64,000 nucleotides of DNA from Mesostigma viride (taxonomy: Eukaryota > Streptophyta > Mesostigmatophyceae > Mesostigmatales > Mesostigmataceae). The translations under genes and the position numbers were made by a program. Shown here piece after piece: positions 8,061 to 47,611 of the stretch. The notes beneath the pieces are model-generated. The model ran no database searches, had not been told where the DNA came from, and saw nothing but the letters and a program-made list of their open reading frames with translations. The stretch is taken from assembly GCA_009746045.1 (NCBI GenBank), contig RPFO01000041.1:10000065-10064064 (forward strand). The letters run 5' to 3'. Numbering within the stretch: position 1 is the first letter of the stretch; the number at the start of each line of letters is the position of its first letter.

Positions 8061-11000
8061 CTATGGCCGCCCGTGTAAGGGGTCCATGAGCCCACGGAGC
8101 AGGGGGTACTGCCTCTCCGCCTTCTCCTCCAGCTTGGTGAGGGCATCTGCAGGGTTGTCCACACCAGGCACATGTTCAATGTGAGCTAGGTAGGACATCT
8201 CCTTGAGCAACAAGTAGTCAAGGTCCCTGCTCCTGGCCAGCTGCCTGTGCACAAATTGCACCATGCCCATGCTATCAGTCCTCACCAGTGTGTGCAGCTG
8301 CAACCTACAGGAAGCCACTTGACATAGCTGGTAGAAGAGCTCCCTCAAGTAAAGAGCAGTATGCAGCCCTTCACAGATTGCCCTGCACTCAGCAATATCA
8401 CTGCTGGGTGTAACCCTGTTCTGCAACCGACTGTACCAGGTAACAAGTGAGGTGTGATCTTGCTCCAGGGTAACTAATGCTGCTGCCCGGCCCCTGACCT
8501 CTGTGACCTTCCTATTGTCCATAGAACTGTCCACATAGAGAACCATGTCAAGGGGCTTGTACAAATCCACAGGACCCAGTATGAGAGGGGGAGACATCAT
8601 GACAGCCTGCACCACACTCTCAGCACCCACCTCAACCAGCTGGGAATCAGTAAGTCGACTCAGAACCAGCAAGTCAGGGGCACATATACTTGCAAGCCAT
8701 GCCAGCATGCCCCTGATGGTAGCACACCTAGCCTGCGTGATGGGCTCCTGCAATGCATCTACAATCTGCTGTGGGTAGTCCTTACCACCCTCCATCCTGA
8801 TGAACCACGAGCCCTTGGCTTGGAACAACGTAGCCTGCATGCCACAGAAGACCATAGGCTCATTCTCCACCATGTGCTGTATCTTACCCAGCTCAAACCG
8901 CTTCTGGATCTTAGCCAAGACAGCCTCAACCCAGTCTGGTGGACCTATGAGATGCAGGTCATCACCATGCAGTGAGGCAAAGACAGGAAGGCCATTGTAG
9001 GACCCTTGGAACAAACAGGGATCCACTGGAGACACAGAACCCACAAGTATTCTTCAAGAATTTCTCTAGGCTCTTTCTCCAGATAATGGGACTGGACCTG
9101 AGACCTTCCAACCCTTTCAGAATTCTCAGGTACCTGGCCTTTATCTCTGCTCTCCATACAGCAGGTACAGTCACAAAGAAAGGAGGGATATCTCTCCAAG
9201 TCTGCCTAGCCTGATCTTGGTCACCCTTGAGAAAAGCCCTCTTGAAATCAATCAGCACAGAGCTATAGGGCACACCCTTAACCAGAAAAGACAGAAATAT
9301 ACACAGCAGAATCCTCCACGTGTCATGCAGCATCCCTGGAGTATAGAGCTCCTCATCTAACAACTGGCCAGTGCCATGATACTCGGTTACAACTGGTCTG
9401 ACATGTGGCACCTGGACACCATCAACCTCCTTGAGCTTGAGGACAAACATCAATCTGAGCAGCTGGTGAACTTCTGGCAGCTCATCCACAGGTTCTGCAC
9501 AGTTGGAAACTATCCACTCATGCCCAGAAGCAACAAAGCCAAGAGTCCATGCCTTAGCCATCTTGGGGCTCTGCATCATCTCGACTAGCTGGCGCCAGGG
9601 AATAGGACTGTGAGCAGCTATCTGGTACCTGTTTACCCCTAACTGCCTTGGATCAAAGGTGGTTGGGATTATCAACAAGTCCTCAGCTATGGGCTCCTGA
9701 CTCTGAGGACCCTCAGCTGGCTGACTCCTAACAGCCTTCACCGCCACTGCAAGACCCTGGGAATAGTGATATCTTTCAAGGGGGAGGCTGCCCCTGCCTT
9801 CTAGTGCCAACTCATCAGAGGTCAAAGTAACCCCTGGCATGCACAAGAAGTTCTGTCCCAGAATGGCAGGCCCCTTATAGCCCTCTACCACACAGAACGT
9901 GGTGGGCACCCCTAAGATAGGCACACTCACTTCCCCAAGGATCTTCATGGACACCTTTCCTGAGAAATCAGACACAGCAAGGCAACTGGGATGGGACATC
10001 TGTAAGCCTACAGCATCCTCTTCCCTGATGACAGACACCTGTGAGTTGGTATCTACCTCCATTGTAGCTGCCCAGCACGACCCCCACCCCGTGAGCTTGG
10101 ATACCTTGGGATCATGTTTGCTGCGCATGAGTGCTCGGATGACGTCCGCCATGAGAGGCCCCCGGGCCTTAGGTGGCTGCCCCGTCCCCTCTGGCCTTGT
10201 GACAGTTGCTTCAGCAGCCTCCTCCTGCTCGTCATCTTCCAGCAGGGACAGACCATCATCCACCACCAGAGGATTGTTAGCTGCTGCTGCCTGGCTCTGG
10301 CCTGGCTCCTCAACCCAGCTGGGAGGGCCTGGCCCGTCTGCAGGCCAGATTGCATGTGGCCTTCTTTCCTTGACATGAGCCCAGGACAACCTGTACACGT
10401 GCCTTGGATCCTTTTCCAAAGCCACCAGGCAAGATCTGTTAGCTTCTTCCACACGAGTGACAACCCCATCCTGCCACTTCCCCCGCTTGCCTGGAATAGA
10501 TGGTTCCTTCCACATCCTGACCTTCAGCCCCACCTGAGGCCTCAGCACATTCCAGTTCTTGTCCTTACGTCTCAGCTGGGCAAATAACCTATCTGCCTTC
10601 CTAAGACTGGCCTGCACCACGTTCTCAGGCAACAAGCTATACTGCAGGGCCAGGGGAGAGACAGCCACACCATCAAAGTAATAGTTAACCCTGTGGTTCA
10701 GCTGCTCTTCTATCCCCTTACACCAGGCTGCCCTCTCTAAGGCAGATGCCACAAGTGGCACTGACTCTGCTGCTAGCACCACTGTCTTCACTTCACGTAT
10801 GGATCTCTCTACAGCCCCTTGCTGCCCATGACTCTCCCTGGGGACTACTACCAGCTTACAAGGCAGCTGGTCCTGATGCTTGAGCAAACAGTCAAACTGC
10901 AAGTCTGCCTGCACACTCTTGCACACCCCAAAGCCTGGGATCAGGGCCTTCATACCCAACAACAAGTGGTGCTCCTGCATACCAGGCAGAACGTCTATCA

Positions 11001-11627
11001 GCCTGTATCTGCTGAACCTGTCCACCCACCAATATATACAAGCCCCTGATATGCTGGATATCCATCTGGATGTCGCCACGCTCCCTAGCAGGCTCCCTAG
11101 CATGGGACTGAGGTGGGTGAACAGCATTCTCCTGGCAACCACAGTTCTCAGCAGCAGCCTGGCATGCCTCCCACAAAGGCTCCCTACCTAGCTTCCAAGC
11201 AAACATTGCTGCCTGCCCAGAATGCCCAAACATATGATGCAATCTATGGCCAGCCTCAGCATAGCTCAGCACTCTGTCAGTACTGACCTGGCGAGACGTC
11301 TGAACCGTGTGTGGGGACACATGATCCACTCCTGAGGTTCCAGGGCTTCCTGCAGGCCATCCTGACGCCCCAAGCCAGGTCCTGCACCCTGGACCGCTCC
11401 AGGCCCTTCCAGCAAGGTCCTTGGCCCTCCAGGCCAGCACCTGCTGGAGACCCACCACCTGCATGAGGCATAGGGAATTCAGCTGCAGCATTGTTATTGC
11501 AATCCAGTGGAAGAACAACATCTTTACACCCTTGGTGCTGCACAAGGGGCACACCCCCATCCTTATGTACATCCAACACACCTTCCCCAAGGGGTGATTG
11601 ACTATTTACAGGGGATGATGTAGCTAG
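8061..11627 (-). pseudogene. A2 pol: INT-PR-RT-RNase H
   Basis: In its own direction: an integrase zinc-binding block (LHHMFGH...NCGCQEN) near 11200-11130 and an integrase core with DIQ, QADLQFD and GAVERSIREVK. An aspartic-protease-like domain follows, with MEVDTNSQVSV near 10065-10030 and a flap ILGQNFL near 9870-9850. Then come a reverse transcriptase with DFKRAFLKGD and HGDDLHLIG, and RNase H ending PADALTKLEEK with the stop at 8061. The protease lies between integrase and RT. Frameshifts: two bases are missing near 9041 relative to A3, one shift lies near 11028, and others lie in the N-terminal part (about 11350-11450). Readthrough of the gag UGA at 11628 would enter this frame. Confidence 0.85.
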
Positions 11628-16275: not shown

Positions 16276-16929
16276 AGTTAGCATATTGGGGCACCAATGT
16301 GCTAGATGGATGCAGGTTGAGGAGACCTTTCCAACGCCGTGTCAACCGCCTAGAACAGACAAGGGACTAGAAAGTTATCAAGTCCCGAAGTACTGCCGAC
16401 CGGTGGGCGAGGGCGGGGCACACTCAGGGCATAGTGGACAGGACACGTGGCAGGCCGTGCCTGCACAGGCTTAGCCTGGACTCTCACGTGACTGGGACAC
16501 AGTGTACTGAGGGCTCAACGGTACTGTGGCTAGTAGAAGCCAGTAACCAGCCAGCAGGTCTGCAAGGATGTAAGTCCTTGCAGGACTGTGGCAGGTCCTG
16601 TGCTGTCCTAGACACAGGATAGCCAGAGATTCCTGTATGCTGCCTGCAACGAGGATGCAAGGCAGCGATACGAGGCTCTGGCAATGTAGCGTTGCCCAGC
16701 GTTGCTCATGACCGAGGAACAAGGATGGAACGAGGTTGCATATAGCTCGAGGCTCAACGAGGCAACGAGCGTCTTCACACACGAACCTTGGTCGTCACGA
16801 CGAGTGGCGAGCCTATCGAGGGTCGTAGGCCTGGTGTGAGGATAAAGGTTGCTAGCCAGCAGCCTAGGGTCATTCCAGCCGGCAAGGACCAGGAGCTCAC
16901 AAGCTCTGCTGACGAGTTGCTGCGCAAAT
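16276..16929 (+). repeat. B1 5' LTR
   Basis: Starts AGTTAGCATATTGG with a terminal hairpin (TAGCATATTGG pairing with CCAATGTGCTA) and ends GCTGCGCAAAT. The duplication GATAA fixes both ends. Confidence 0.92.
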
Positions 16930-16939
16930 CGTACTATTG
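16930..16939 (+). other. B1 post-LTR site (putative primer site)
   Basis: CGTACTATTG directly after the LTR. Its exact complement lies at 24144-24153 in the same element. Confidence 0.65.
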
Positions 16940-16952
16940 CTTCCACGCTTTC

Positions 16953-18080
16953 ATGTCTGGTTCATCGTCAAGCAGCCACAGTGCTGGTGAGGCGAACGAG
17001 CAGAGAGACGCGCAAGCGTTTTTCCCCTACCGTAACCAAGCAAACGCTCCAACATTCGTGCAAGCGGCCTACGTAGCGAGGCACTTGGCAGAAGAGGGGT
17101 GGGTGGCGGTGAGTGGGGGAGGCAACAGGCCAGCGGCGGCGGACCCGATTATACAACGGGCTCGCGTCGTGATTTCTCCAGGTGAGACGGGGCGAGTGGC
17201 GGTGGAAGAGTTGGTGCGCATACGGGACGCGCTAGCTGAAACTGCTAATCGTGTGGAGGTCGCTTATCAGGGCGCCCATATCACGCTTGCCGGTCTCGAC
17301 CTTGCCAGGGAGGCGCTTAGCCAGATCGTGGCAACAGCGCTCGGCAGCACCAGACTGTTCAACCACTGGGTGGCGACAGCAGTGCTAGGAGAGGGGGTAC
17401 CAGACGCCGACATCATCCGGAACGCGCGTGCTCGGGAGACGGTAAATCCTTGGAGCACGGCGGAGGTATTTGCCCAAACCATTGAGAATCTTGTTGCTGT
17501 CCTTTTGCAAGAGTCGAGAGGGTACGCAGACAGGTTCTATATTACCACGCAGCCTTTCGGAGTGTACTCCAGGCTTGATACACCGAGGCCGGAAACCACC
17601 ACTGCGTGGGGTCCGGAGGTGGAGATTGTCGCAGGGGTCGAGAAGACGCCTGAAGACGTCCATTTTGAGTGGACTGACAAGCCAGAGGGCTCCGTCAAGC
17701 GCTCAGCCCAGCAGATAAACGAGGGCGACGGCACTACCGAGACCTACGAGGCAAGGCAGAGAGCTGATCTGCATATCCCTCGTGAGGCGACTCACGAGTA
17801 CGACCGTTACGGCCGAGGCGAGCAGAACGAGCTTGTCGGCGGCGGTAAGCGGTGGTTGCGCAATCTTGCTTGGCATCGCAACCCAGGCGAGACACAACAT
17901 CCAGTCGAACGCAAGGAAGACGGGCGACCTGTGACCTGCGTGCTGGGAGAGTTTAACCCAGACCTCCAGATTGTCGCAGAGGCAGCAGCAGCCACACGGT
18001 TGCTGAGGGTGTTGAGCAGCGTCCAGACCGTGAGGAGGGGCAGGCGAGTGCAAGCCAGGAGGCGGCCTCGTCTGGAGTAA
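16953..18080 (+). CDS. B1 ORF0, unknown protein
   Basis: 375 codons from the first ATG after the LTR (MSGSSSSSHSAGE). It lies between the 5' LTR and gag, where copia elements normally have no gene. Visible blocks are FFPYRNQANAPTFVQAAYVA near residues 30-49, VISPGETGRV near 72-81, AYQGAHITLAGLDLARE near 105-121, TRLFNHWVAT near 132-141, and GGGKRWLRNLAWHRNP near the C-terminus. Helical and soluble in character; no signal peptide or membrane segment. I recognise no domain and no catalytic motif. Homologues occur in A2, A3 and B2, and a distant one in E, so it is under selection as a protein. A missing base near 17990 alters the last 30 codons relative to B2. Confidence 0.8.
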   Translation: MSGSSSSSHSAGEANEQRDAQAFFPYRNQANAPTFVQAAYVARHLAEEGWVAVSGGGNRPAAADPIIQRARVVISPGETGRVAVEELVRIRDALAETANRVEVAYQGAHITLAGLDLAREALSQIVATALGSTRLFNHWVATAVLGEGVPDADIIRNARARETVNPWSTAEVFAQTIENLVAVLLQESRGYADRFYITTQPFGVYSRLDTPRPETTTAWGPEVEIVAGVEKTPEDVHFEWTDKPEGSVKRSAQQINEGDGTTETYEARQRADLHIPREATHEYDRYGRGEQNELVGGGKRWLRNLAWHRNPGETQHPVERKEDGRPVTCVLGEFNPDLQIVAEAAAATRLLRVLSSVQTVRRGRRVQARRRPRLE

Positions 18081-18239
18081 GTGCGTGAGCCTGAGTGGGT
18101 TCCAGCGGCCATATCTGCGTGTGTTTTCTGTGGTATTCTATAATGCTTCGTAACACGCGCGGGGCGGCAGCGGGAGCGGGGCGGGAGCGGGGGATGGCGG
18201 GGTGAGGCAAGGGCAGACACAGGAGGCCCCGCCAACGTC

Positions 18240-19490
18240 GTGCCAGAGGGACAGGCAATCCCAACGGCAGAGGGCGTCAATGGCAGGAGGGCGTCCAACC
18301 GGAAGAGGAAAGAGGTGGCACAAGGGGAGGAGCGTGCAGGGTGGCCAACCGACGGCGTGGTGCTGACGGGGGAGGGCCAGAATGATGCTGAACGGCAAGC
18401 ACCTGGTAAGAGACCATGTGTGCCTCCGTCTGGTGTTCCTGCAGCTCATGTTCCTGCGCCATTAGCACCAGTAGGAGCTGCTGTCATTGGCAGTGACCCT
18501 CGTGCTTTGCCTGGGACTAGACCTCATATGAGTGCTGTGGCTGTGATGAATGGCCAGAAGCCTCTCAAGCCTCCTGTGGGACAGGAAGAGCTAGACAAGT
18601 GGTTGGAGGATATGGAGCTAGTTTCATGCTCTGTAGATCCCACTGTCAACCTTGTGCAGGTATTCCACACATCCACGACTAATAGGGATTCAAGTGAGAG
18701 GGTGAGGGACAAGGCTAGGCAGGCTGTCAAGGACAAGCTGACTTGGTCTCAGTTCCTAGAGGGCCTACGTCAGGAGTTTTCTGATAAGGTACTCAACCTC
18801 ACTAATCACTATAAGCTCAGCTATGATACCTTTGAGATCAAGGGCACAATAGCTGAGGAGCTGCAGCGGCTCACACGCATCAGGGAGAAGGGGGCCAAGC
18901 ATGGCTTCAATCTGACTGATAGAGCAGTGGCAGATTACTTCCTGGATCGCATGGGGCTGAGTGTGGATGGGAGAAATGCAGCTAGGATGTTTGCTGATCA
19001 GACAGATGGGACGTGGCCAGCCTTGCAAAAGGTTATTTTCAATATCCGTCCATCTGACAATGCTGCTTGCAAGGCAATCCAGGTGACTGGTGCCCCTTCA
19101 GCCTCCGCTCATCAGGTCCATGGTGACGCCCCTGGGCAGGGTGCTCAGGGAGAAACCAGACCTAGTAGGCGTCAGAGGGCTAACAGGCGCAGGCAGAATG
19201 GTAACCAGGGTGGCAAGGGCCAGCAGCAGGGATCCAAAGGCAAGGGTCAGCAGCAGGCTGGTGGTCACCAGGGTGGTCAGCAGAACAAGGGTGGCCAAGG
19301 GCAAGGCAAGAGCCAGGGCCAGGGCACCCAGGCCAGTCAGAGCAGCCAGAACCAGGGTGGCCTGAAGAAGGCTGCTGCTGGGAAGGATGACAAGTGCTTT
19401 GGATGTGGCAGGACGGGTCATTGGCGACGTGACTGCCCAGACCAGGCCAAGTCTGCTGGAGCAGGCTCTGGCCAGGTGGGTAAGCCATGA
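18240..19490 (+). CDS. B1 gag polyprotein
   Basis: 416 codons. N-terminus with a basic patch (RRASNRKRKE) that could target the nucleus. The capsid-like region has EELDKWLEDMEL, DKLTWSQFLEGLRQEF, DRAVADYFLDRMG and WPALQKVIFNIR. A Gln/Gly-rich basic tract spans about residues 300-375, and a CCHC knuckle (CFGCGRTGHWRRDC) lies near 386-399. The upstream ATG at 18143, aligned with the family A start, runs into a stop, so 18240 is chosen. It ends with UGA (19488-19490) followed by CUU. In B2 the corresponding UGA is in frame with pol. Confidence 0.82.
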   Translation: MPEGQAIPTAEGVNGRRASNRKRKEVAQGEERAGWPTDGVVLTGEGQNDAERQAPGKRPCVPPSGVPAAHVPAPLAPVGAAVIGSDPRALPGTRPHMSAVAVMNGQKPLKPPVGQEELDKWLEDMELVSCSVDPTVNLVQVFHTSTTNRDSSERVRDKARQAVKDKLTWSQFLEGLRQEFSDKVLNLTNHYKLSYDTFEIKGTIAEELQRLTRIREKGAKHGFNLTDRAVADYFLDRMGLSVDGRNAARMFADQTDGTWPALQKVIFNIRPSDNAACKAIQVTGAPSASAHQVHGDAPGQGAQGETRPSRRQRANRRRQNGNQGGKGQQQGSKGKGQQQAGGHQGGQQNKGGQGQGKSQGQGTQASQSSQNQGGLKKAAAGKDDKCFGCGRTGHWRRDCPDQAKSAGAGSGQVGKP

Positions 19491-19495: not shown

Positions 19496-22400
19496 ATGTT
19501 GTCCCCTGTAAATAGTCAATCACCCCTAGTGGGACGAACAGTTGTACATAGTAATGGGGGTGTCCCTCTTGTGCAGCAGCAAGGGGTTGGGAATGATGAG
19601 GTGCTTCCACTCAATGATTGCAATAACGCTGCTGCAGCAGTGGAATTCCCTGTGCCTGTGGCAGGTGCAGGGTCTCCAGTTGTTGGGGTTGACTCTGGGA
19701 GTCAAGCCGCCAGACTGGAAGGACCTGCAGCTTCTGTGGGAACCGGGGCTGGCTCTGGGAGCCGAGCTACCTTGGAGGAGGTCCCTGGAGCAAGAGAACA
19801 GCAGGTGGGTCGTGCTATCCCAAGCACACAGTCTTTGTCACGTTCCTCTCTGTGCAGCCAGGCTGACAGGGGGTTGAGCTATGCTCAGGCTGGAAACACT
19901 CTACACCATATCTTTGGTCACTCTAAGCAGGCAGAGATGTTTGCTTGGAAGATTGGCAAGGAGCCTTTGCTAGAGGCCTGCAGTGCAGCTGCTCAGAATT
20001 GTGTCTGTCAGGAGAATGCTGTTCGCCTCCCACAGTCCCATGCCAGAGAGCCTGCTAGAGAGCGGGGGGATATCCAGGTGGACATCCAACACATCAGGGG
20101 CATGTATCTGTTGGTGGGGGTGGATAGGTTTAGCAGATATAGGTTGCTGACCATTCTTCCTGGAATGCAGGAGCATCAGCTGTTGATGGGTCTCCAGTCT
20201 TTGTTGCCAGGCTTTGGGGTGTACACCAAGGTGCAAGCTGACTTGCAGTTTGACTGCTTGATCAAGCTGGCTGACCAGCTTCCTTGTAAGTTGGTAGTGG
20301 TCCCTAGGGAATGCCATGGGCAGCAGGGAGCTGTAGAGAGATCTATACGTGAAGTAAAAACAGTGGTGCTAGCAGCTAGGAGTGTGCCTGTTGTGGCATC
20401 AGCTCTAGAGAAAGCAGCTTGGTGTAAGGGGATTGAGGAGCAGCTTAACCACAGGGTAACCTATTACTATGATGGTGTGGCAGTCTCTCCCCTGGCATTG
20501 CAGTTTGGTATGCTATCACAGGACGTGGTGGCAGCCTGCCTGAAGAAGGCAGACAGGGTGTTTTCCAGATTGAGGCGTAAGGACAAGGGTTGGAAAATGC
20601 TGAGGCCCCAGGTGGGACTGAGGGTCAGGATGTGGAAGGAACCGTCATTACCAGGCAAGCGTGGCAAGTGGCAAGATGGGCAGGTAACCCATGTTGAGGA
20701 AGCTAACCATTCTTGTCTGGTGGCTTTGGAGAGTAATCCCAAGCACGTGTACAGGCTATCCTGGGCTCACGTCAAGGAGAGAAGGCCAACTGCAATCTGG
20801 CCTGAAGACGGCCCTGATCCTCCCTTGGAGGGAGATGAGCAGGATGAGAGCCAGGCAGCAGATGCTAACCCACCATGCTTGGATTATGGTCTGTCCTGGA
20901 TGGATGAGGGTGAGCAGGAGTCTGCTGAGACGTCTGTCACAAGGCCAGAGGTGGCCAGGGCTGCACCACAGTCCAGGGGGCTGCTTATGGCGGACATCAT
21001 TCGAGCTCTGCAGAACAGCAAGCGTGATCCCAAGGTATCTAAGCTCACGGGATGGGGGTCATGTGGGGCACCAGCACTAGAAGTGGATACCAACTCACAG
21101 GTGTCCATTCTAAGGGTAGAGGATGCTGCAGGCTTGCAGTGGTCATCCCCTAGCTGCCTAGCTGTGTCTGATTTCTCTGGGAATGTGTCCATGAAGATCT
21201 TGGGAGAAGTGAGTGTGCCTATCCTGGGGGTGCCCACCACGTTCAGTGTGGTTGAAGGGTATCAGGGGCCTGCCATTCTAGGTCAGAACTTCTTGTGCTT
21301 ACCAGGGGTGAGGATATCCTCTGAGGAGCTAGCATTAGAAGGGCAGGGCCGCCTTCCCTTGCAGAGATATCGCTACTCCCAGGGTCTTAGTGTGGCTGTA
21401 AGGGCTGTGAGGGGTCTAGAGGCAGAGGGTCCTGATACAAAGGAGCCCATTGCTGGGGACCTGCTGATCCTCCCTACTACGTTTGACCCACGTGAGTTGG
21501 GTGTGCAGAGGTACCAGATCCCAGGAACGAGTCCTGTACCTTGGCGCAAGCTAGTGGAGATGATGCAAAGCCCCAAGATGGCTAAGGCATGGACTCTTGG
21601 CTTTGTTGCTTCTGGGCATGAGTGGATAGTTGCCAACTGTGCAGAGCCTGTGGATGTCCTCCCTGAGGATCACCAGCTGCTCAGATTGATGTTTGTCCTC
21701 AAGCTCAAGGAGGTAGATGGCGTGCAGGTGCCACATGTTAGACCAGTTGTGACTGAGTACCATGGCACTGGACAGTTAGCAGATGAGGAGCTTTACACAC
21801 CAGGGATGCTGCATGATACATGGAGGATTTTGTTGTGCATTTACTTGTCTTTTCTGCAGAAGGGGATACCCTATAGCTCTGTGTTGGTAGATTTCAAGAG
21901 GGCTTTTCTTAAGGGTGATCAGCAGGAAGCACAGGATACTTGGCGCACAATACCCCCTTTCTTTGTTAAGGTGCCTGCAGTGTGGAGGGCAGAGCTGAAG
22001 ACGAGGTATTTGAGGATTCTCAAAGGCGTGGAAGGCCTTAGATCGAGTCCCATCATCTGGAGGAAGAGCTTGGAGAAGTACCTCAGGTCTGTCTGTGGTC
22101 TCTCAGTCTCTCCAGTTGATCCTTGTCTGTTTCAGGGTAGCTATGAGGGGCTGCCAGCGTTTGCCTCCCTGCATGGTGATGATCTGCATCTCCTGGGCCA
22201 TCCCACTTGGCAAGAGTTGACTCTGGCCAGGATCCAGAAACGGTTTGAACTGGGTAAGATCCAGTACATGGTTGAGAATGAGCCCATGGTGTTTTGTGGA
22301 ATGCAGGCGACCTTGGTCCATCAGCAGGGTACATGGTCCATCCAGCTGGAGGGTGGTAAGGATTATCCTCAGCAGATCATAGATGCCTTGCAGGAACCCA

Positions 22401-22873
22401 TCACCCAGGCCAGATGTGCAACAATACGAGGTATGTTGGCATGGCTGGCCAGCATTTGTGCTCCTGACCTGTTGGTACTGAGTCGGTTGACCGATTCCCA
22501 ACTGGTTGAGGTGGGTGCTGAGACAGTGGTAGAGGCTGTTCGCATGTCTCCCCCTCTCATGCTGGGTCCTTTGGATTTGTACAGGCCTTTTGACATGATG
22601 CTCTATGTGGACAGTTCTATGGATAGTAGGAAGGTCACAGAGGTCAGGGGCCGTGCAGCAGCATTAATATCCCTGGTGCAGGAACAGTCCTCTCTGGTCT
22701 GCTGGTACAGTCGGTTGCAGAACAGGGTAACTCCCAGCAGTGACATTGCTGAGTGCAGGGCAATCTGTGAAGGGCTTCATACTGCTCTTTACTTGAGGGA
22801 GCTATTTTACCAGCTATGTCAAGTGGCTTCCTGTCGATTGCAGATGCACACACTGGTAAGAACTGACAGCATG
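19496..22873 (+). CDS. B1 pol: INT-PR-RT-RNase H
   Basis: 1127-codon frame uninterrupted until FB1. Domains: integrase zinc block LHHIFGH...NCVCQEN (about 133-172) and integrase core with DIQVDIQHIRG (about 190), QADLQFD (about 247) and GAVERSIREVK (about 279). A basic block RMWKEPSLPGKRGKWQDG lies near 380. The aspartic-protease-like domain has LEVDTNSQVSI near 529 and ILGQNFLCLPG near 596. RT has VLVDFKRAFLKGD near 798 and SLHGDDLHLLG near 893; RNase H has YVDSSMDSRKVTE near 1038, ECRAICEG near 1085 and RTDS near 1122. The protease is between INT and RT. The frame starts TGAATG, so here pol would need its own initiation; B2 shows that the ancestral arrangement was an in-frame UGA. Confidence 0.88.
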
Positions 22874-23271
22874 AGTTAAGTAATGCAATACGCATTACTT
22901 TTGCATACTTGCAAGTATGCAAAAGTAATGCGTATTGCATAAATTAAAATTGGGCCGCGTGGGGAAATCCGGCGTTCCGCACACACCGCTCGTTACCGAG
23001 GTGACTCGATTAATTACGACTCGGCTATTCCCAGCCTCACGCCGTAATTCCTATTTCGACTTGGCCTACCCGGCCTCCGCCAAACATAGAAATCCACAAA
23101 TATTTCGACTCGGCCTCCCAGGCCTACCCACCGCAAATATTTCCGTGCCTCCGAGAGGATTCGAACCCGGTACCCCAGGAGCGAACGCCAATCTTAGTTA
23201 AGTAATGCAATACGCATTACTTTTGCATACTTGCAAGTATGCAAAAGTAATGCGTATTGCATTACTTAACT
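22874..23271. mobile_element. FB1: foldback element with palindromic ends
   Basis: 398-bp insertion in B1 RNase H with 5-bp duplication GCATG (22869-22873 and 23272-23276). Each end is a near-perfect palindrome starting AGTTAAGTAATGC; the right unit is 76 bp (23196-23271), and the left is the first 67 bp of it (22874-22940). Because the unit is palindromic, the ends are both direct and inverted repeats. The interior contains, on the minus strand, a T-arm-like GGGTTCGAATCC followed by CTCGGAGGCA, resembling a tRNA 3' half. No ORF of consequence. Confidence 0.82.
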
Positions 23272-24424: not shown

Positions 24425-25081
24425 AGTTAGCATATTGGGGCACCAATGTGCTAGATGGATGCAGGTTGAGGAGACCTTTCCAACGCCGTGTCAACCGCCT
24501 AGAACAGACAAGGGACTAGAAAGTTATCAAGTCCCGAAGTACTGCCGACCGGTGGGCGAGGGCGGGGCACACTCAGGGCATAGTGGACAGGACACGTGGC
24601 AGGCCGTGCCTGCACAGGCTTAGCCTGGACTCTCACGTGACTGGGACACAGTGTACTGAGGGCTCAACGGTACTGTGGCTAGTAGAAGCCAGTAACCAGC
24701 CAGCAGGTCTGCAAGGATGTAAGTCCTTGCAGGACTGTGGCAGGTCCTGTGCTGTCCTAGACACAGGATAGCCAGAGATTCCTGTATGCTGCCTGCAACG
24801 AGGATGCAAGGCAGCGATACGAGGCTCTGGCAATGTAGCGTTGCCCAGCGTTGCTCATGACCGAGGAACGAGGATGGAACGAGGTTGCATATAGCTCGAG
24901 GCTCAACGAGGCAACGAGCGTCTTCACACACGAACCTTGTTGGTCGTCACGACGAGTGGCGAGCCTATCGAGGGTCGTAGGCCTGGTGTGAGGATAAAGG
25001 TTGCTAGCCAGCAGCCTAGGGTCATTCCAGCCGGCAAGGACCAGGAGCTCACAAGCTCTGCTGACGAGTTGCTGCGCAAAT
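24425..25081 (+). repeat. B1 3' LTR
   Basis: 657 bp. It differs from the 5' LTR by a 3-base insertion (CTTGTTGGTCG) and about one substitution. Confidence 0.92.
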
Positions 25082-25086: not shown

Positions 25087-25570
25087 GTTACCGAAGTTTG
25101 ATGGTGTGGATCCCCGTAAGTGGGAGGCGACGAATGTCCGCTTTACCCGTTTGCTGAAAGCCTTTAACCTGCATGGGGTAATCACGGGTGAGATCGAGGA
25201 CGATGGCAAGGACGCGGCAGTTCAGGCCGCGATGGGCATCTTTTTAGATGGCCTGGCTCTTATGCTGGTCAAGAATGTGACCAGTGCAAAACAGGCATGG
25301 GAGCTCCTGATGAAGAGGTTTGGTCACCACCGTACGACTGAGACCTATCAGGATGAACTGCGTCGCAAGCTTCGTTCCAAGGAGCCTGCACCAGTGGACA
25401 AGCCCCTCAATGAGTTTTTGGCAGCGAGGGAGCTGACGCGCGAGGAGTACGTCCAGGAGCTGGACGGGCGTTTTGACGACCAGGACATGGTCCTCTCTAC
25501 TCATGATCTCATGCCCGCCGCGATCCGGGTGATGATGGCAGCGCAGGATGTACGCATCACCACACTCACG
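25087..25570 (+). pseudogene. C gag, central segment
   Basis: Continues C gag with LPKFDGVDPRKWEATNVRF, then a UBN2-like block AKQAWELLMKRFGHHRTTET and a helical region to RITTLT, where A3 is inserted at TCACG. This is the classic copia gag domain. It continues in phase at 41520 with WDEYKARV. Confidence 0.82.
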
Positions 25571-26219
25571 AGTTAGACGAAAACCAGCCCAGAGCGTGTG
25601 AGCTCTTGGTCTTTCACGCAAAGCTTGAGCCAATTGCTGGAGACAGCAATCCTTAGCCCAAACACCAAGCCACACCTTGTTGGTCACTTCCACGTTCAAG
25701 TGGGCAACCAGAGCGCGTGCTTCCGAGATAGCTTGGCCATCTCCATGACCAAGCTATATGCCTCTTTGTTGCTCCTCGTTCCCATCGGCGTGACGAGGCA
25801 TGTTGCAGGCTTGCTAGCAAATCCTCAACGTCCACTGGCATCCTTGCAGAGCCAGGACGAACTGGATTTACCTAGCTACCTGCAACCTAGGAAGTACAGG
25901 ACCTGTCACAAGCCTGCAAGACCTAGTATCCTTGCAGCCTTGTGCCAGTTCCAGTACCCCACCAGTCGCAGGCTGCTGTCCCTCCTGGTCTACGTGGACC
26001 ACAGTCACGTGATAGTCAGGCTAAGCCTGTGCAGGCACGGCCTGCCACGTGTCCTGTCCACTACCCCAGAAGGTTGCACCCTCGCTGACCGCTGACGGCT
26101 AGGACTTCGGGACCTCATATCTTTCTTGTCCCTTGTCTGTTTCAGGCGGTCAGCACGGCGTTGGAAAGGTCTTTCCAAACTGCATCCACTTAGCATATTG
26201 GTTGCCCAAAATGCTAACT
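25571..26219 (-). repeat. A3 3' LTR
   Basis: 649 bp, AGTTAG...CTAACT. One mismatch to the A3 5' LTR (CGCTGACGG versus CGCGGACGG). Confidence 0.92.
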
Positions 26220-26547
26220 CCAACCCTTTCTTCTTTTGGAGCTGGACCAGCTTGAAACAACCTAGCCTAGCTTGTGCCCACTCAGCCACAGATCGCTTGG
26301 TCCCTTGAGGTTGATCAGACCTGTCAGGGCCCAGGTTCCTGCCTTCCTTTTGGGAACACAACATATGTGCCCTTGGAACAGCTTAGGTATGCTGGCCAGT
26401 GAATCAGAGGTCACCCCAGGTTATCCCCTGACCCCTTGGTCAGCTCCCAACCTTTCCTTGGGAACTTGGTAGTTGGATTAATAGTCAAGGTCCCTTCCTG
26501 GCTCAGCCTGGCTGTGCACAACATGCACAATGCCCGTGCTATTGTCC

Positions 26548-29500
26548 TCACCAGTGTGTTGCACTGCAATCACAGGAAGCCACTTGGACATAGCTGGTTG
26601 AAGAGGCCTTTCCCTTAAGTCCAAAGAGCAGTATGCAGCCCCTCACAGATTGCCCTGCACTCAGTCTCACTGCTGGGTGTAGCCCATGTCTTGCAACCAG
26701 ACTGTACCAGGTAACAAGTGAGGTGTGATCTTGCTCCAGGGTGACTACTGCTGCTGCCCTGCTCCTGACTTCAGTGACCTTCCTATTGTCCATAGAACTG
26801 TCAACATAAAGGATCATGTCAAGGGGCTTGTACAAATCCACAGGACCCAGTATGAGAGGGGGAGACATCATGACAGCCTGCACCACACTCTCGGCCCCCA
26901 CCTCAACCAGCTGGGAATCAGTGAGCCGACTCAAAACCAGCAGGTCAGGGGCACATATACTTGCAAGCCATGCCAGCATGCCCCTGATGGTAGCACACCT
27001 AGCCTGCGTGATGGGCTCCTGCAATGCATCTACAATCTGCTGTGGGTAGTCCTTACCACCCTCCATCCTGATGAACCACGAGCCCTTGGCTTGGAACAAC
27101 GTAGCCTGCATGCCACAGAAGACCATAGGCTCATTCTCCACCATGTGCTGTATCTTACCCAGCTCAAACCGCTTCTGGATCTTGGCCAAAACAGCCTCAA
27201 CCCAGTCTGGTGGACCTATAAGATGCAGGTCATCACCATGCAGTGAGGCAAAGACAGGAAGGCCATTGTGGGACCCTTGGAACAAGCAGGGATCCACTGG
27301 AGACACAGAAAACCCACAAGTATTCTTCAAGAATTTCTCTAGGCTCTTTCTCCAGATAATGGGACTGGACCTGAGACCTTCCAACCCTTTCAGAATTCTC
27401 AGGTACCTGGCCTTTATCTCTGCTCTCCATACAGCAGGTACAGTCACAAAGAAAGGAGGGATATCTCTCCAAGTCTGCCTAGCCTGATCTTGGTCACCCT
27501 TGAGAAAAGCCCTCTTGAAGTCAATCAGCACAGAGCTATAGGGCACACCCTTGACCAGAAAAGACAGAAATATACACAGCAGAATCCTCCACGTGTCATG
27601 CAGCATCCCTGGAGTATAGAGCTCCTCATCTAACAACTGGCCAGTGCCATGATACTCGGTTACAACTGGTCTGACATGTGGCACCTGGACACCATCTACC
27701 TCCTTGAGCTTGAGGACAAACATCAATCTGAGCAGCTGGTGAACTTCTGGCAGCTCATCCACAGGCTCTGCACAGTTGGAAACTATCCACTCATGCCCAG
27801 AAGCAACAAAGCCAAGAGTCCATGCCTTAGCCATCTTGGGGCTTTGCATCATCTCGACTAGCTGGCGCCAGGGAATAGGACTGTGAGCAGCTATCTGGTA
27901 CCTGTTTACCCCTAACTGCCGTGGATCAAAGGTGGTTGGGATTATCAACAGGTCCTCAGCTATGGGCTCCTGACCTTGAGGACCCTCAGCTGGCTGACTC
28001 TTAACAGCCTTTACCGCCACTGCAAGACCCTGGGAATAGTGATATCTTTCAAGGGGGAGGCTGCCCCTGCCTTCTAGTGCCAACTCATCAGAGGTCAAAG
28101 TAACCCCTGGCATGCACAAGAAATTCTGACCCAGAATGGCAGGCCCCTGATAGCCCTCTACCACACAGAACGTGGTGGGCACCCCTAAGATAGGCACACT
28201 CACTTCCCCAAGGATCTTCATGGACACCTTTCCTGAGAAATCAGACACAGCAAGGCAACTGGGATGGGACATCTGTAAGCCTACAGCATCCTCTTCCCTG
28301 ATGACAGACACCTGTGAGTTGGTATCTACCTCCATTGTAGCTGCCCAGCACGACCCCCACCCCGTGAGCTTGGATACCTTGGGATCATGTTTGCTGCGCA
28401 TGAGTGCTCGGATGACGTCCGCCATGAGAGGCCCCCGGGCCTTAGGTGGCTGCCCCGTCCCCTCTGGCCTTGTGACAGTTGCTTCAGCAGCCTCCTGCTC
28501 GTCATCTTCCAGTAGGGACAGACCATCATCCACCACCAGAGGATTGTTAGCTGCTGCTGCCTGGCTCTGGCCTGGCTCCTCAACCCAACTGGGAGGGCCT
28601 GGCCCGTCTGCAGGCCAGATTGCATGTGGCCTTCTTTCCTTGACATGAGCCCAGGACAACCTGTACACGTGCCTTGGATCCTTTTCCAAAGCCACCAGGC
28701 AAGATCTGTTAGCTTCCTCCACACGAGTGACAACCCCATCCTGCCACTTCCCCCGCTTGCCTGGAATAGATGGTTCCTTCCACATCCTGACCTTCAGCCC
28801 CACCTGAGGCCTCAGCACATTCCAGTTCTTGTCCTTACGTCTCAGCTGGGCAAACAGCCTGTCTGCCTTTCTAAGACTGGCCTGCACCACATTCTCAGGT
28901 AGTAAGCTATACTGCAGGGCCAGGGGAGAGACAGCCACATCATCAAAGTAATAGTTAACCCTGTGGTTCAGCTGCTCTTCTATCCCCTTACACCAGGCTG
29001 CCCTCTCTAAGGCAGATGCCACAAGTGGCACTGACTCTGCTGCTAGCACCACTGTCTTTACCTCACGTATGGATCTTTCTACAGCCCCTTGCTGCCCATG
29101 ACTCTCCCTGGGGACTCCTACCAGCTTACAAGGCAGCTGGTCCTGATGCTTGAGCAAACAGTCAAACTGCAAGTCTGCCTGCACACTCTTGCATACCCCA
29201 AAGCCTGGGATCAGGGCCTTCATACCCAACAACAAGTGATGCTCCTGCATACCGGGTAGAATGCCTATCAGTCTATATCTACTGAACCGGTCCACCCCCA
29301 CTAATATATACAAGCCCCTGATATGCTGGATATCCATTTTGGATGTCGCCACGCTCTCTAGCAGGCTCCCTAGCATGGGACTGGGGTGGGTGAACAGCAT
29401 TCTCCTGGCAACCACAGTTCTCAGCAGCAGCCTGGCATGCTTCCCACAAAGGCTCCCTACCTAATTTCCAAGCAAACATTGCTGCCTGCCCAGAATGTCC

Positions 29501-29902
29501 AAACATATGATGCAATCTATGGCCAGCCTCAGCATAGCTCAGCACTCTCTCAGTACTGACCTGGCGAGACGTCTGAACCGTGTGTGGGGACACATGATCC
29601 ACTCCTGAGGTTCCAGGGCTTCCCTGCAGGCCATCCTGACGCCCCAAGCCAGGCCCTGCACCCTGGACCGCTCCAGGCCCTTCCAGCAAGGTCCTTTGGC
29701 CTTCCAGGCCAGCACCTGCTGGAGACCCACCACCTGCATGAGGCATAGGGAATTCAGCTGCAGCATTGTTATTGCAATCCAGTGGAAGAACAACATCCTT
29801 ACACCCTTGGTGCTGCACAAGGGGCACACCCCCATCCTTATGTACATCCAGCACACCTTCCCCAAGGGGTGATTGACTATTTACAGGGGATGATGTAGCT
29901 AG
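26548..29902 (-). pseudogene. A3 pol: INT-PR-RT-RNase H
   Basis: After the gag UGA the same frame continues with LATSSPVNSQSPL and LDVHKDGGVPL, then the integrase zinc block (LHHMFGH). A frameshift near 29340 follows, then a 955-codon frame with integrase core, VDTNSQVSV protease with ILGQNFL flap, RT (DFKRAFLKGD, HGDDLHLIG) and the start of RNase H (LYVDSSMDNRKVTE). The frame is lost near 26700, and the RNase H C-terminus is deleted. Confidence 0.85.
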
Positions 29903-29905
29903 TCA
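29897..29905 (-). promoter_or_regulatory. UGA CUA G readthrough context, gag-pol
   Basis: On the minus strand CAG TGA CTA GCT joins gag and pol in one frame. UGA CUA G is a known efficient stop-readthrough context. The same sequence occurs at the gag-pol junctions of A2 (11628) and A4 (62997). Confidence 0.65.
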
Positions 29906-30627
29906 CTGCTGCCCAGACTGGCCCCCTGCTCCAGCAGGCTTGGCCTTCCTGTCAGGGCACTCACGACGCCAGTGACCTTCCTTGCCACACACAAAGCATG
30001 CTCCACCCTTCTTTCCAGACCCAGCCCCACCCTTGCCAGGCTTCCCCTGGCCTCCCTGAGACTGCCCACCCTGCTTGCCCTGATTGCCTTGAGCTTGGCT
30101 CTTGCCTTGCCCTTGGCCACCCTTGCCCTGCTGACTACCAGCTTGCTGGCTCCCAACCCCTCCTTGGGAACCTGCACCCTTGCTACCTTGAGCCCCATTC
30201 CTCTGGCGCCTGAAGCGCCTACGCTTGTTAGGCCTTGCCCCACCACGGGCTGGGTACCCGGGGACATCACCTTGGGCCTGCGCAGCGGAGGTGGCATTGC
30301 TGCCGTGGGACTGAATGGCTTTGCAGGCAGGGTCTGGCTTCCTGATACTAAGGATAACCAGCTCTAGAGCACGCAAGGACCCATCTGTCTGGTTCAGAAA
30401 CATGCGGGCACTGTTCCTCCCATCCACACTCAACCCCATTCGGTCCAGGAAATAGTCTGCCAAGGCTCTATCTGTGACCAGGAAGCCATACTTGGCCCCC
30501 TTGTCTCTGATACGGTTGAGCCTGGCTCACTCCTCTGCAACATGGCCAATGATCTCGAACGTGTCATACTGGTGTTTATAGTAGTTTGTGAGGTTCAAAA
30601 CCTTGTCTGAAAACTCCTCCCTCAGTC
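29903..30627 (-). pseudogene. A3 gag, C-terminal segment
   Basis: Holds DRALADYFLDRMG, the Gly/Gln-rich basic tract and the CCHC knuckle (CFVCGKEGHWRREC), ending QSGQQ then UGA (29903-29905). The stop is followed by CUAG, and the next 17 codons lead in the same frame into pol. Its N-terminal part is at 38985-39640 beyond B2. An in-frame stop (CACTCC context near 30527) suggests mild decay. Confidence 0.8.
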
Positions 30628-30632
30628 CATCC

Positions 30633-31286
30633 ATTTGCGCAGCAACTCGTCAGCAGAGCATGTGAGCTCCTGGTCCTTGCCGGCTGGAATGACCCTAGGC
30701 TGCTGGCTAGCAACCTTTATCCTCACACCAGGCCTACGACCCTCGATAGGCTCGCCACTCGTCGTGACGACCAAGGTTCGTGTGTGAAGACGCTCGTTGC
30801 CTCGTTGAGCCTCGAGCTATATGCAACCTCGTTCCATCCTTGTTCCTCGGTCATGAGCAACGCTGGGCAACGCTACATTGCCAGAGCCTCGTATCGCTGC
30901 CCTGCATCCTCGTTGCAGGCAGCATACAGGAATCTCTGGCTATCCTGTGTCTAGGACAGCACAGGACCTGCCACAGTCCTGCAAGGACTTACATCCTTGC
31001 AGACCTGCTGGCTGGTTACTTGCTTCTACTAGCCACAGTACCGTTGAGCCCTCAGTACACTGTGTCCCAGTCACGTGAGTGTACAGGCTAAGCCTGTGCA
31101 GGCACGGCCTGCCACGTGTCCTGTCCACTATGCCTTGAGCGTGCCCCGCCCTCGCCCACCGGTCGGCAGTACTTCGGGACTTGATAACTTTCTAGTCCCT
31201 TGTCTGTTCTAGGCGGTTGACACGGCGTTGGAAAGGTCTCCTCAACCTGCATCCATCTAGCACATTGGTGCCCCAATATGCTAACT
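30633..31286 (-). repeat. B2 3' LTR
   Basis: On the minus strand starts AGTTAGCATATTGG and ends GCGCAAAT at the CATCC duplication. Confidence 0.92.
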
Positions 31287-32181
31287 CCAACCCTTTCTTG
31301 TTTTGGAGCTTGGACCAGCCTGAGAACCTATCAGCCACTGTCCCCACAAGCCTTCAGACATCTGATCCCTCCCAGAGACCAGACCTGCCTTTTCTTTTGG
31401 AACCTGAGGTGCCTCCAAATATTAGCTAGGCCTGCTCATTGGTTCAAAGGTTGCCCTCTGACCCACATGACATCCCAACCCTTTCTTTGGGAACCTGGTG
31501 TAGATTAAAGTTAGGTCTTCACTTAGTCAGAGGAGTTTGGATAGAGGAGTCCATGAACGTACTATTGTGAGTTCCTGGTCATCCAGTTATCACAGGCGCC
31601 CGTTCATATGGCGCCCGCCACGGAGCCTCCTTTATCTTTTAAATCCTTCCAAAGACTGAGAGAGCCCTGACAAATGTTAGCCAACACATGGGGAGCCCAT
31701 GTCCTCACTGAGGGATAAACTCAGGATTCATACATGCCAGGCTGAGGTCAGCTGGGGAATCGAACCCCACCCCATCTCCTCCAGGTTTGGATCAGCTCCT
31801 GGAACTGAGCATCACAAACAACAAGACATGACAATAACAAGATTATGTTTTATTATAAAGGAGTATAACCCATAGTGAGGCCCCTGGCAACCACGTCCAA
31901 CATGGTCACACAACCAGGGATTTTATTAGCATGCAACAGGTTGGTTACAGAGAATATATACAAATGTACAGCAACCTGTGAGAGCCAACACTTGGGCTGC
32001 CCTTGCAGGGTCCATTCCATGAAGACCCAAGGCCCATTGGCGAAATTCTCAGCCAGGGGAGTGACTCCACCCTGACCCCTGTCCAGCAGAGTGTGTCTGA
32101 ACTCTGAAGGACCTGCTGCCAGCCACCACATGGCTGCCCAGCCCACTGGGATGCCTCCCACCTAGAGCAAGGCTGTTTGGT
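31287..32181 (-). other. B2 3' untranslated region
   Basis: Inverted counterpart of 23487-24424. The tRNA-like fold lies at about 31754-31805 and the CAATAGTACG site at 31558-31567 (exact complement of 38316-38325). Confidence 0.7.
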
Positions 32182-35100
32182 CTACTCTGGCCCTCCCCCC
32201 TTGGAGGCCATGAGCCCACGAAGCAAAGGGTATTGCAGCTCAGCCTTCTCCTCCAGCTTGGTGAGAGCATCTGCAGGGTTGTCCACGCCAGCCACATGTT
32301 CAATGTTAGCTAAGCAAGACATTTCCTTGAGCAACAAATAATCAAGGTCCCTGCTCCTGGCCAGCTGCCTGTGCACAAACTGCACCATGCCCATGCTGTC
32401 AGTTCTTACCAGTGTGTGCATCTGCAACCGACAGGAAGCCACTTGACATAGCTGGTAAAATAGCTCCCTCAAGTAAAGAGCAGTATGAAGCCCTTCACAG
32501 ATTGCCCTGCACTCAGCAATGTCACTGCTGGGAGTTACCCTGTTTTGCAACCGACTGTACCAGCAGACCAGAGAGGACTGTTCCTGCACCAGGGATATTA
32601 ATGCTGCTGCACGGCCCCTGACCTCTGTGACCTTCCTACTATCCATAGAACTGTCCACATAGAGCATCATGTCAAAAGGCCTGTACAAATCCAAAGGACC
32701 CAGCATGAGAGGGGGAGACATGCGAACAGCCTCTACCACTCTCTCAGCACCCACCTCAACCAGTTGGGAATCGGTCAACCGACTCAGTACCAACAGGTCA
32801 GGAGCACAAATGCTGGCCAGCCATGCCAACATACCTCGTATTGTTGCACATCTGGCCTGGGTGATGGGCTCCTGCAAGGCATCTATGATCTGCTGAGGAT
32901 AATCCTTACCACCCTCCAGCTGGATGGACCATGTACCCTGCTGATGGACCAAGGTCGCCTGCATTCCACAAAACACCATGGGCTCATTCTCAACCATGTA
33001 CTGGATCTTACCCAGTTCAAACCGTTTCTGGATCCTGGCCAGAGTCAACTCTTGCCAAGTGGGATGGCCCAGGAGATGCAGATCATCACCATGCAGGGAG
33101 GCAAACGCTGGCAGCCCCTCATAGCTACCCTGAAACAGACAAGGATCAACTGGAGAGACTGAGAGACCACAGACAGACCTGAGGTACTTCTCCAAGCTCT
33201 TCCTCCAGATGATGGGACTCGATCTAAGGCCTTCCACGCCTTTGAGAATCCTCAAATACCTCGTCTTCAGCTCTGCCCTCCACACTGCAGGCACCTTAAC
33301 AAAGAAAGGGGGTATTGTGCGCCAAGTATCCTGTGCTTCCTGCTGATCACCCTTAAGAAAAGCCCTCTTGAAATCTACCAACACAGAGCTATAGGGTATC
33401 CCCTTCTGCAGAAAAGACAAATAAATGCACAACAAAATCCTCCATGTATCATGCAGCATCCCTGGTGTGTAAAGCTCCTCATCTGCTAACTGTCCAGTGC
33501 CATGGTACTCAGTCACAACTGGTCTAACATGTGGCACCTGCACGCCATCTACCTCCTTGAGCTTGAGGACAAACATCAACCTGAGCAGCTGGTGATCCTC
33601 AGGGAGGACATCCACAGGCTCTGCACAGTTGGCAACTATCCACTCATGCCCAGAAGCAACAAAGCCAAGAGTCCATGCCTTAGCCATCTTGGGGCTTTGC
33701 ATCATCTCCACTAGCTTGCGCCAAGGTACAGGACTCGTTCCTGGGATCTGGTACCTCTGCACACCCAACTCACGTGGGTCAAACGTAGTAGGGAGGATCA
33801 GCAGGTCCCCAGCAATGGGCTCCTTTGTATCAGGACCCTCTGCCTCTAGACCCCTCACAGCCCTTACAGCCACACTAAGACCCTGGGAGTAGCGATATCT
33901 CTGCAAGGGAAGGCGGCCCTGCCCTTCTAATGCTAGCTCCTCAGAGGATATCCTCACCCCTGGTAAGCACAAGAAGTTCTGACCTAGAATGGCAGGCCCC
34001 TGATACCCTTCAACCACACTGAACGTGGTGGGCACCCCCAGGATAGGCACACTCACTTCTCCCAAGATCTTCATGGACACATTCCCAGAGAAATCAGACA
34101 CAGCTAGGCAGCTAGGGGATGACCACTGCAAGCCTGCAGCATCCTCTACCCTTAGAATGGACACCTGTGAGTTGGTATCCACTTCTAGTGCTGGTGCCCC
34201 ACATGACCCCCATCCCGTGAGCTTAGATACCTTGGGATCACGCTTGCTGTTCTGCAGAGCTCGAATGATGTCCGCCATAAGCAGCCCCCTGGACTGTGGT
34301 GCAGCCCTGGCCACCTCTGGCCTTGTGACAGACGTCTCAGCAGACTCCTGCTCACCCTCATCCATCCAGGACAGACCATAATCCAAGCATGGTGGGTTAG
34401 CATCTGCTGCCTGGCTCTCATCCTGCTCATCTCCCTCCAAGGGAGGATCAGGGCCGTCTTCAGGCCAGATTGCAGTTGGCCTTCTCTCCTTGACGTGAGC
34501 CCAGGATAGCCTGTACACGTGCTTGGGATTACTCTCCAAAGCCACCAGACAAGAATGGTTAGCTTCTCAACATGGGTTACCTGCCCATCTTGCCACTTGC
34601 CACGCTTGCCTGGTAATGACGGTTCCTTCCACATCCTGACCCTCAGTCCCACCTGGGGCCTCAGCATTTTCCAACCCTTGTCCTTACGCCTCAATCTGGA
34701 AAACACCCTGTCTGCCTTCTTCAGGCAGGCTGCCACCACGTCCTGTGATAGCATACCAAACTGCAATGCCAGGGGAGAGACTGCCACACCATCATAGTAA
34801 TAGGTTACCCTGTGGTTAAGCTGCTCCTCAATCCCCTTACACCAAGCTGCTTTCTCTAGAGCTGATGCCACAACAGGCACACTCTAGCTGCTAGCACCAC
34901 TGTTTTTACTTCACGTATAGATCTCTCTACAGCTCCCTGCTGCCCATGGCATTCCCTAGGGACCACTACCAACTTACAAGGAAGCTGGTCAGCCAGCTTG
35001 ATCAAGCAGTCAAACTGCAAGTCAGCTTGCACCTTGGTGTACACCCCAAAGCCTGGCAACAAAGACTGGAGACCCATCAACAGCTGATGCTCCTGCATTC

Positions 35101-37020: not shown

Positions 37021-37169
37021 GACGTTGGCGGGGCCTCCCGTGTCTGCCCTTGCCTCACCCCGCCATCCCCCGCTCCCGCCCCGCTCCCGCTGCCGCCCCG
37101 CGCGTGTTACGAAGCATTATAGAATACCACAGAAACACACGCAGATATGGTGCTGGAACCCACTCAGGC

Positions 37170-38302: not shown

Positions 38303-38315
38303 GAAAGCGTGGAAG

Positions 38316-38325
38316 CAATAGTACG
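38316..38325 (-). other. B2 post-LTR site (putative primer site)
   Basis: CGTACTATTG on the minus strand directly after the LTR, exactly complementary to 31558-31567 of the same element. Confidence 0.65.
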
Positions 38326-38979: not shown

Positions 38980-38984
38980 CATCC

Positions 38985-39640: not shown

Positions 39641-39698
39641 TATATTAGGTACAAAGCGACACTGCAACACGCAAGGGTATGCAAAAGAAGACAGGACT

Positions 39699-40838: not shown

Positions 40839-40855
40839 GAAATGCGCCGCGGAAC

Positions 40856-47606: not shown

Positions 47607-47611
47607 GCAGG

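Follow-up and report, generated by a model that had tools for sequence, protein, structure and literature searches.

B1, an element within a 64,000-nucleotide stretch of Mesostigma viride (Streptophyta) contig RPFO01000041.1 (assembly GCA_009746045.1, forward-strand positions 10,000,065 to 10,064,064; hereafter the window, in whose own coordinates positions are given), is a young long terminal repeat (LTR) retrotransposon of high copy number. Such elements are conventionally divided by the order of the domains in pol, copia elements having protease (PR), integrase (IN), reverse transcriptase (RT) and RNase H (RH) in the order PR-IN-RT-RH, and gypsy elements PR-RT-RH-IN. The pol frame of B1 (19496-22879) encodes, from the N- to the C-terminus, an integrase, a retropepsin-like domain, a copia-type RT and RNase H. 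We consider it very probable that B1 is a copy of a young and abundant LTR retrotransposon from a copia-related lineage that carries this IN-PR-RT-RH order in pol. The hallmarks of an LTR retrotransposon, namely an LTR pair, a target duplication, a gag with a zinc knuckle and pol, are all present, and the two LTRs differ by 1 mismatch and 3 gap columns.

A preliminary description of the window, made from its letters, had read this domain order from a set of short motifs, every one of which was found again in the B1 frame (Table 1). It had placed them in one frame from 19496 to 22873; the frame is real and runs for 1127 amino acids (aa) to 22879, but its end is an artefact of an insertion, intact copies having 1194-1203 aa. 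The frame ends at 22873-22879 because a 398-bp insertion interrupts RNase H, and B1 is accordingly a damaged copy, with RNase H cut by the insertion and with gag and pol out of frame. In Pfam, the matches of B1 pol to RVT_2 (E=0.0022) and to rve (E=0.15) fell under the cut-off. Because B1 pol passes no Pfam cut-off, automatic tools that need above-threshold Pfam domains would miss or mislabel the element.

The genome (439.9 Mb in 2243 contigs) was searched with B1; 9692 first-look candidates yielded 41 scored matches, of which 26, not counting the row of the window itself, were full-length and free of stops, with frames of 1195-1205 aa. Of 29 B-family loci fetched, 26 were anchored at their start, L029, L038 and L039 being excluded for lack of the anchor sequence. 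In 25 of the 26 anchored copies, IN, PR, RT and the RNase H end followed one another in this order within a single frame, 1194-1203 aa long; the remaining copy had a frame of 1077 aa and no RNase H end motif. P0001, a protein of 1214 aa that comes from a separate contig record of 6.2 kb, aligned collinearly with B1 (1016 columns, 45% identity) and retained both DTN and ILGQNFL. A second family, of which the gene model P0012 (named Mesvir1; the family is here called P12) is a part, is ~33% identical to B1 and P0001. P0012 was matched at 100% (rounded) by all 65 scored genome loci (of 8107 candidates), with a 1344-aa frame in 45 of them, and IN-PR-RT-RH was found in one frame in 19 of the 20 loci that were fetched, in pieces that reached back no further than 1186 aa from the end of the frame.

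Within the window, the same order had been claimed for the elements A2, A3, A4, B2 and F. The order was recovered in these elements, but a single frame was seen only in part in A2 and A3 (in A3, the IN core, PR, RT and part of RNase H share the frame 26551-29415), and the others are split, B2 pol being spread over several frames and F keeping IN-PR-RT-RH in broken frames. Because the A and B families are ~80% identical in DNA, they are not independent witnesses of the order; P0001, P12 and F are better ones. The order is thus shared by four lineages (B/A, P0001, F and P12) that are ~30-45% identical in protein, in agreement with the earlier proposal that it is a property of a clade. An assembly artefact or a local rearrangement might be suspected in a window that is a dense nest of repeats. 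The recurrence of the order in B copies and P12 loci on many contigs, and in the separate-contig protein, led us to reject local rearrangement as its source and leaves either explanation a negligible chance. Collectively, these findings support the clade reading, and three further findings are added to it: a protease of a non-copia type, the loss of an active-site glycine, and the damage to B1.

With high confidence we regard the segment between IN and RT as retropepsin-like, and we hold its activity as a protease to be moderately probable. All four lineages, in which the segment is 35-47% identical to that of B1, keep the aspartate and the threonine as well as a hydrophobic-hydrophobic-glycine loop, which reads ILG or LIG. 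P0001 was matched by Pfam family PF13975 (E=0.0023) from position 14 to position 91 of a model with 92, D-T-N included, while PF13650 matched P0001 at E=0.13 and PF13975 matched the A2 copy at E=0.085. In a search of the PDB with profile A8 (five segments, with the fourth lineage added and a shorter cut; matches with E up to 10 listed), 11 sequences were found, 10 of which were retroviral-type proteases (named protease, retropepsin, SIV or HIV-1 protease), with a best E of 0.033. The ILG loop of the clade was aligned in register on the IIG loop of these proteases, and the reversed-profile control gave 0 matches. The profile searches suggested in the preliminary description yielded retropepsin-type matches for the segment, which are weak, and RVT_2 for the RT.

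Several other results weigh against this assignment or bear on it neither way. A Pfam protease match was absent in B1, F and P12, and an NCBIfam scan gave chance-level matches only. The PDB protease matches are one family of mutually similar sequences, with the best E-values coming from tethered dimers scored twice, which we take to be HIV-1, and with the best single-domain chain at E=0.62. What these matches span is the second half of the domain, 2rkg alone reaching across most of it, and none includes D-T-x, which was covered only by the row of an unrelated kinase. A first PR profile gave weak tethered-protease matches (E 1.1-1.2) that ranked below two unrelated proteins; PR-RT-RH and RT profiles found nothing in the PDB, and the single B1 pol sequence gave three chance-level matches. 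Structure prediction of the segment, also suggested earlier, was run and spoke neither for nor against the fold, with an AlphaFold pLDDT of 35 for the PR segment (8 rows) and 36 for the whole pol (9 rows), values that are probably low owing to shallow alignments. Foldseek on the PR model, whose confidence is too low for the outcome to carry meaning, returned no retropepsin among the best 50 of 53 matches. On the whole-pol model it returned the Ty3 RT at E=4.9e-4, together with Tudor/SH3 barrels; the Tudor matches (E 0.02-0.1, ~60 columns) were assigned to 20606..20779 by inference, the query range being absent from the match list.

Low-confidence models that lack Foldseek support, Pfam scores under the cut-off and single-domain PDB matches at E of 0.6 or more would also suit some other small beta-barrel that resembles a retropepsin by short motifs only. 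However, two Pfam aspartic-protease families match P0001 across nearly the full model, and the ten protease matches stand in register against none for the reversed control, which renders another barrel improbable.

Doubt on the activity of the protease arises because the glycine after D-T is replaced in the four lineages, by N in B and P0001 (DTN), by M in F (DTM) and by K in P12 (DTK); to our knowledge, this glycine is near invariant in known retropepsins, and its replacement has to be counted against an active enzyme. A retropepsin-fold pseudoprotease, having kept the fold and lost cutting, might instead dimerise Pol or space IN and RT, with processing left to a host protease or not occurring at all. 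The absence of the glycine from all four lineages is what this explanation accounts for; by contrast, a pseudoprotease would not need the aspartate, which is kept in the four lineages together with the threonine and the glycine loop, and the dN/dS of the segment is as low as that of the integrase core. Between B1 and A3, dN/dS was 0.17 (0.08-0.27) for PR, 0.17 for the IN core, 0.09 for RT, 0.30 for the RNase H part and 0.54 (0.28-0.96) for the linker before PR. These values are pairwise with wide intervals, and the linker after PR is low too (0.22), which tempers their weight. We regard the pseudoprotease as possible but doubtful; most likely the domain continues to act as a protease, its D-T-x turn having changed. 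Nature has provided in this clade several retropepsin-like domains that lack the active-site glycine.

It is also conceivable that a genuine protease lies elsewhere, in gag, in a 430-aa frame upstream of gag or early in pol, the domain between IN and RT then being an additional one. Such a reading could draw on a DSG at residue 66 of B1 pol, on a DTG that lies early in B1 gag, before the knuckle, and on the uncharacterised 430-aa frame. Yet no protease family matched the 430-aa frame, the gag frames of B1 and A2, the pol N-terminus of B1 and P0001 or the gag frame of F, and the pol N-terminus compared with a copia PR profile by hhalign was not significant (E=0.097, probability 0.6%). The DSG is shared by the near-identical copy B2, stands in a stretch without a family match, is missing in the aligned A3 and A4 copies and was not seen in P0001; it was rejected as a protease on the lack of a family match and its absence from A3 and A4. 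Likewise, P12 gag and the first 158 aa of P12 pol contain no D[ST]G. We therefore judge a protease outside the IN-RT segment to be very unlikely. The preliminary description had held that no protease motif occurs between the gag knuckle and the integrase, and had named a protease in gag or early pol as what would overturn its reading. Apart from the one DSG the first statement holds, and no protease family match appeared in the stretches scanned.

For comparison with canonical copia elements, ten RT-bearing contigs were found by an RT motif pattern and taken as contaminants of bacterial assemblies; one, L008, was excluded from the RT profile and tree. These copia elements sit in contigs filed as bacterial genomes (L001-L010), apparently through eukaryotic contamination of GTDB assemblies. 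Pfam RVT_2 matched P0006 at E=3e-7, P0002 and P0003 at 2e-4, B1 at the value given above and P0001 at 0.014, all under the Pfam cut-off; P0004 and P0012 were without a match, and no other RT family was listed. In hhalign, the RT of the clade matched nine canonical copia RTs at E=1.7e-12 over 168 columns. The RT phylogeny proposed in the preliminary description (18 rows) split the nine clade rows from the nine copia rows at 100/100, in an unrooted tree with long branches. The active-site box of the RT reads HGDD in B1, A3, P0001, P0004, P0006, F and P0012, compared with YVDD in 10 of 10 copia controls. Pol_BBD (PR), gag_pre-integrs, rve, SH3_retrovirus and RVT_2 followed in this sequence in the 3 of 3 copia controls scanned, and Pol_BBD, gag_pre-integrs and SH3_retrovirus had no match in the clade.

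Two points count against a copia placement: it is unrooted, because the tree contains no gypsy, BEL or retroviral RT, and the integrase of the clade matched the copia integrase at chance level by hhalign, rve reaching only E=0.15. The best short hhalign integrase matches, which are not significant, land on positions that look equivalent. The protease-like domain, as judged from its loop, is not of the copia type, carrying ILG instead of LLS; in 6 of 6 copia control proteases this loop has the pattern N[LI][ILVM]S, and hhalign aligned clade PR with copia PR over 8 columns at E=0.29. By sequence, the element is copia-related in its RT and non-canonical in its order and protease, and it should not be filed as plain copia; it likely belongs to a deep lineage that is related to copia and has a pol order new for the group.

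With Ty1/copia (Pseudoviridae), the clade shares the RT type, an integrase upstream of RT and a 5-bp target duplication, and its RNase H ends in NPADALTK, a copia-like motif. It differs from Ty1/copia in having the protease after the integrase, of the ILG rather than the LLS type, and HGDD rather than YVDD in the RT box. According to passages of PMC2774666, every known Ty1/Copia element has int placed after pr, and the proteases of this group have the LLS motif in all but very few cases, ILG being predominant in the others. Like Ty3/gypsy (Metaviridae), retroviruses and BEL/Pao, for which the same passages give the ILG motif (PMC2774666), the clade has its protease directly before RT-RNase H; unlike them, it has its integrase in front and not after RNase H, and its RT matches RVT_2 only. 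Those passages further describe Gmr1 as a gypsy element with a copia-like integrase position, and Petunia vein clearing virus (Caulimoviridae) as having the integrase at the front, upstream of gag (PMC2774666); as described there, the two show that the position of the integrase varies in other groups. A displaced integrase is common to Gmr1 and the clade, whereas the clade has a copia-type RT and its own domain order. Petunia vein clearing virus is the nearest precedent we met for an integrase upstream of what follows, but the clade consists of LTR elements with gag first and the integrase between gag and the protease-like domain. With the clan AA single-domain aspartic peptidases, the clade shares the D-T active site, the ILG loop, the spacing and the PF13975/PF13650 match (P0001), and it departs from them in the N, M or K that replaces the glycine of D-T-G.

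The order IN-PR-RT-RH was not found reported in titles and abstract openings of the open literature, a search that left most subscription journals and Repbase outside. For Mesostigma viride, 60,339 LTR retroelements have been described as the largest repeat portion, with a figure of 27.9% whose denominator is unchecked, and the passages of that source contain no classing of these elements by domain order (PMC6947507).

In 25 of the 26 anchored B copies, gag is closed by a UGA that ends 6 bases ahead of the pol ATG and is in frame with it; gag and pol are out of frame in 1 of the 26 and likewise in the B1 of the window. Because one gag-UGA-pol frame is normal for the B family, read-through of the stop is pointed to; separate initiation of B1 gag and pol was dropped, since other copies normally share one frame. 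In the B family, Pol would thus be made as a Gag-Pol fusion by reading through the UGA stop. For P12, the fusion may arise by frameshift, because at the single locus whose upstream part was read, gag (427 aa, three CCHC knuckles) and pol are in different frames that overlap. The gag-pol junctions therefore differ, with overlapping frames in P12 (L041, L061) as against a single in-frame UGA in B, and the clade possibly contains two recoding modes. Two Gag-Pol fusions would then dimerise within the particle, and the retropepsin-like pair would cut Gag-Pol so as to free its two neighbours, IN and RT-RNase H, with cDNA synthesis and insertion proceeding as in other LTR elements.

Two histories could have led to this order. 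In the first, the copia protease disappeared and a protease of the ILG type was acquired beside RT; in the second, an early branch kept the PR-RT-RH block of gypsy elements, retroviruses and BEL, with IN placed in front. Only tentatively do we suggest the fuller form of the second history, in which the clade would be a deep sister of Ty1/copia that was never copia-arranged, having kept the ancestral PR-RT-RNase H block with IN in front and an active D-T-[N/M/K] protease. If this deep-sister history is true, the two great branches of LTR elements each came to their integrase position independently. A third order, with a protease resembling that of the other side, in a young and abundant lineage makes the origin of both established orders testable.

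The features of B1 and of its relatives in the window are listed in Table 1. The LTRs lack TG...CA ends, B1 and A3 starting with AGTTAG and A3 ending with CTAACT. The 398-bp insertion in RNase H resembles a MITE-type element, its ends being long inverted repeats that are themselves palindromic, flanked by a 5-bp target site duplication. The LTR pairs of B2 and A3 are also nearly identical, with 1 mismatch in 655 in B2 and 1 mismatch in 652 in A3; such pairs, and the full-length copies free of stops, speak for activity of the element.

Table 1 Features of B1 and related elements in the 64-kb window (TSD, target site duplication; ORF, open reading frame)
Feature	Position	Strand	Basis
B1, 5' copy of 5-bp TSD GATAA	16271..16275	.	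LTR boundary comparison
B1, 5' LTR; starts AGTTAGC, ends GCAAAT	16276..16929	+	comparison with 3' LTR
430-aa open frame beginning inside the 5' LTR, before gag; no Pfam match	16788..18080	+	ORF list, Pfam
B1, gag frame (stop to stop); CCHC knuckle ~19392-19439, TGA at end	18144..19490	+	zf-CCHC E=2.8e-05
B1, pol open frame, 1127 aa; end truncated by insertion	19496..22879	+	ORF list
B1, integrase zinc block H138/H142-C169/C171	19907..20008	+	motif, alignment
B1, integrase core D196 (QVDIQ)-D249 (QADLQ)-E281 (VERSIREVK)	20066..20605	+	motif; Pfam rve E=0.15
B1, integrase C-terminal SH3/Tudor-like barrel	20606..20779	+	four strands, model blocks pLDDT 67-73
B1, retropepsin-like domain, D531-T-N (VDTNSQVSI) ... 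I594-L-G-Q-N-F-L	21053..21370	+	motifs, profiles
B1, copia-type RT; HGDD box (residues 893-896) at 22172-22183	21545..22495	+	RVT_2, hhalign
B1, RNase H, first part, interrupted; YVDSS motif	22496..22873	+	motif, alignment
Terminal-inverted-repeat insertion, 398 bp, in RNase H; TSD GCATG at 22869-22873 and 23272-23276	22874..23271	.	sequence
B1, 3' LTR; followed by TSD GATAA at 25082-25086	24425..25081	+	LTR comparison
B2, second copy of the B1 family, inside A3	30633..38980	-	LTRs 38326-38980 and 30633-31287, TSD GGATG
A3, sister family, interrupted by B2	25568..41514	-	LTRs 40863-41514 and 25568-26219, TSD CGTGA
A2, pol frame, IN core-PR-RT (part)	8965..11142	-	ORF list; PF13975 E=0.085
A4, frame with IN tail-PR; RT ~3 kb away at 56497-57967	61093..62160	-	ORF list
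F, integrase frame; third catalytic residue D	44574..45950	+	alignment
F, retropepsin-like domain, IDTMAGVSI ... LIGNPFV; alone without Pfam match	46103..46471	+	motif, alignment
F, remaining RT (HGDD) and RNase H, after repeat-rich stretch 46827-47606	47605..48742	+	alignment

In the protein searches for relatives, only the 7357-7996 candidates sharing most words were scored, and few relatives were found. Neither relatives nor copia or gypsy references were found in viral_contigs. The gene models P0002, P0010 and P0011, which are also named Mesvir1, match B1 at 85-99%. Some relatives that are 77-100% identical to B1 (P0003, P0005, P0007) carry dinoflagellate labels: P0003, labelled Prorocentrum lima, is 100% identical over 45% of the query, and P0007 is labelled Lingulodinium polyedra. 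Our guess is that they stem from transcriptome cross-contamination, horizontal transfer being the alternative. That the window itself comes from a dinoflagellate was rejected on the match of P0012 at 100% (rounded) in all 65 scored loci.

The third catalytic residue of the integrase is D instead of E not only in F but also in the P12 family. Long simple repeats, with frames that read as GGWV and RACV runs, flank the P12 element (L041:4581-4949, L061:1-426). At 1253-2034 of the window, a 390-bp unit forms a two-copy tandem duplication with copies that are 99% identical.

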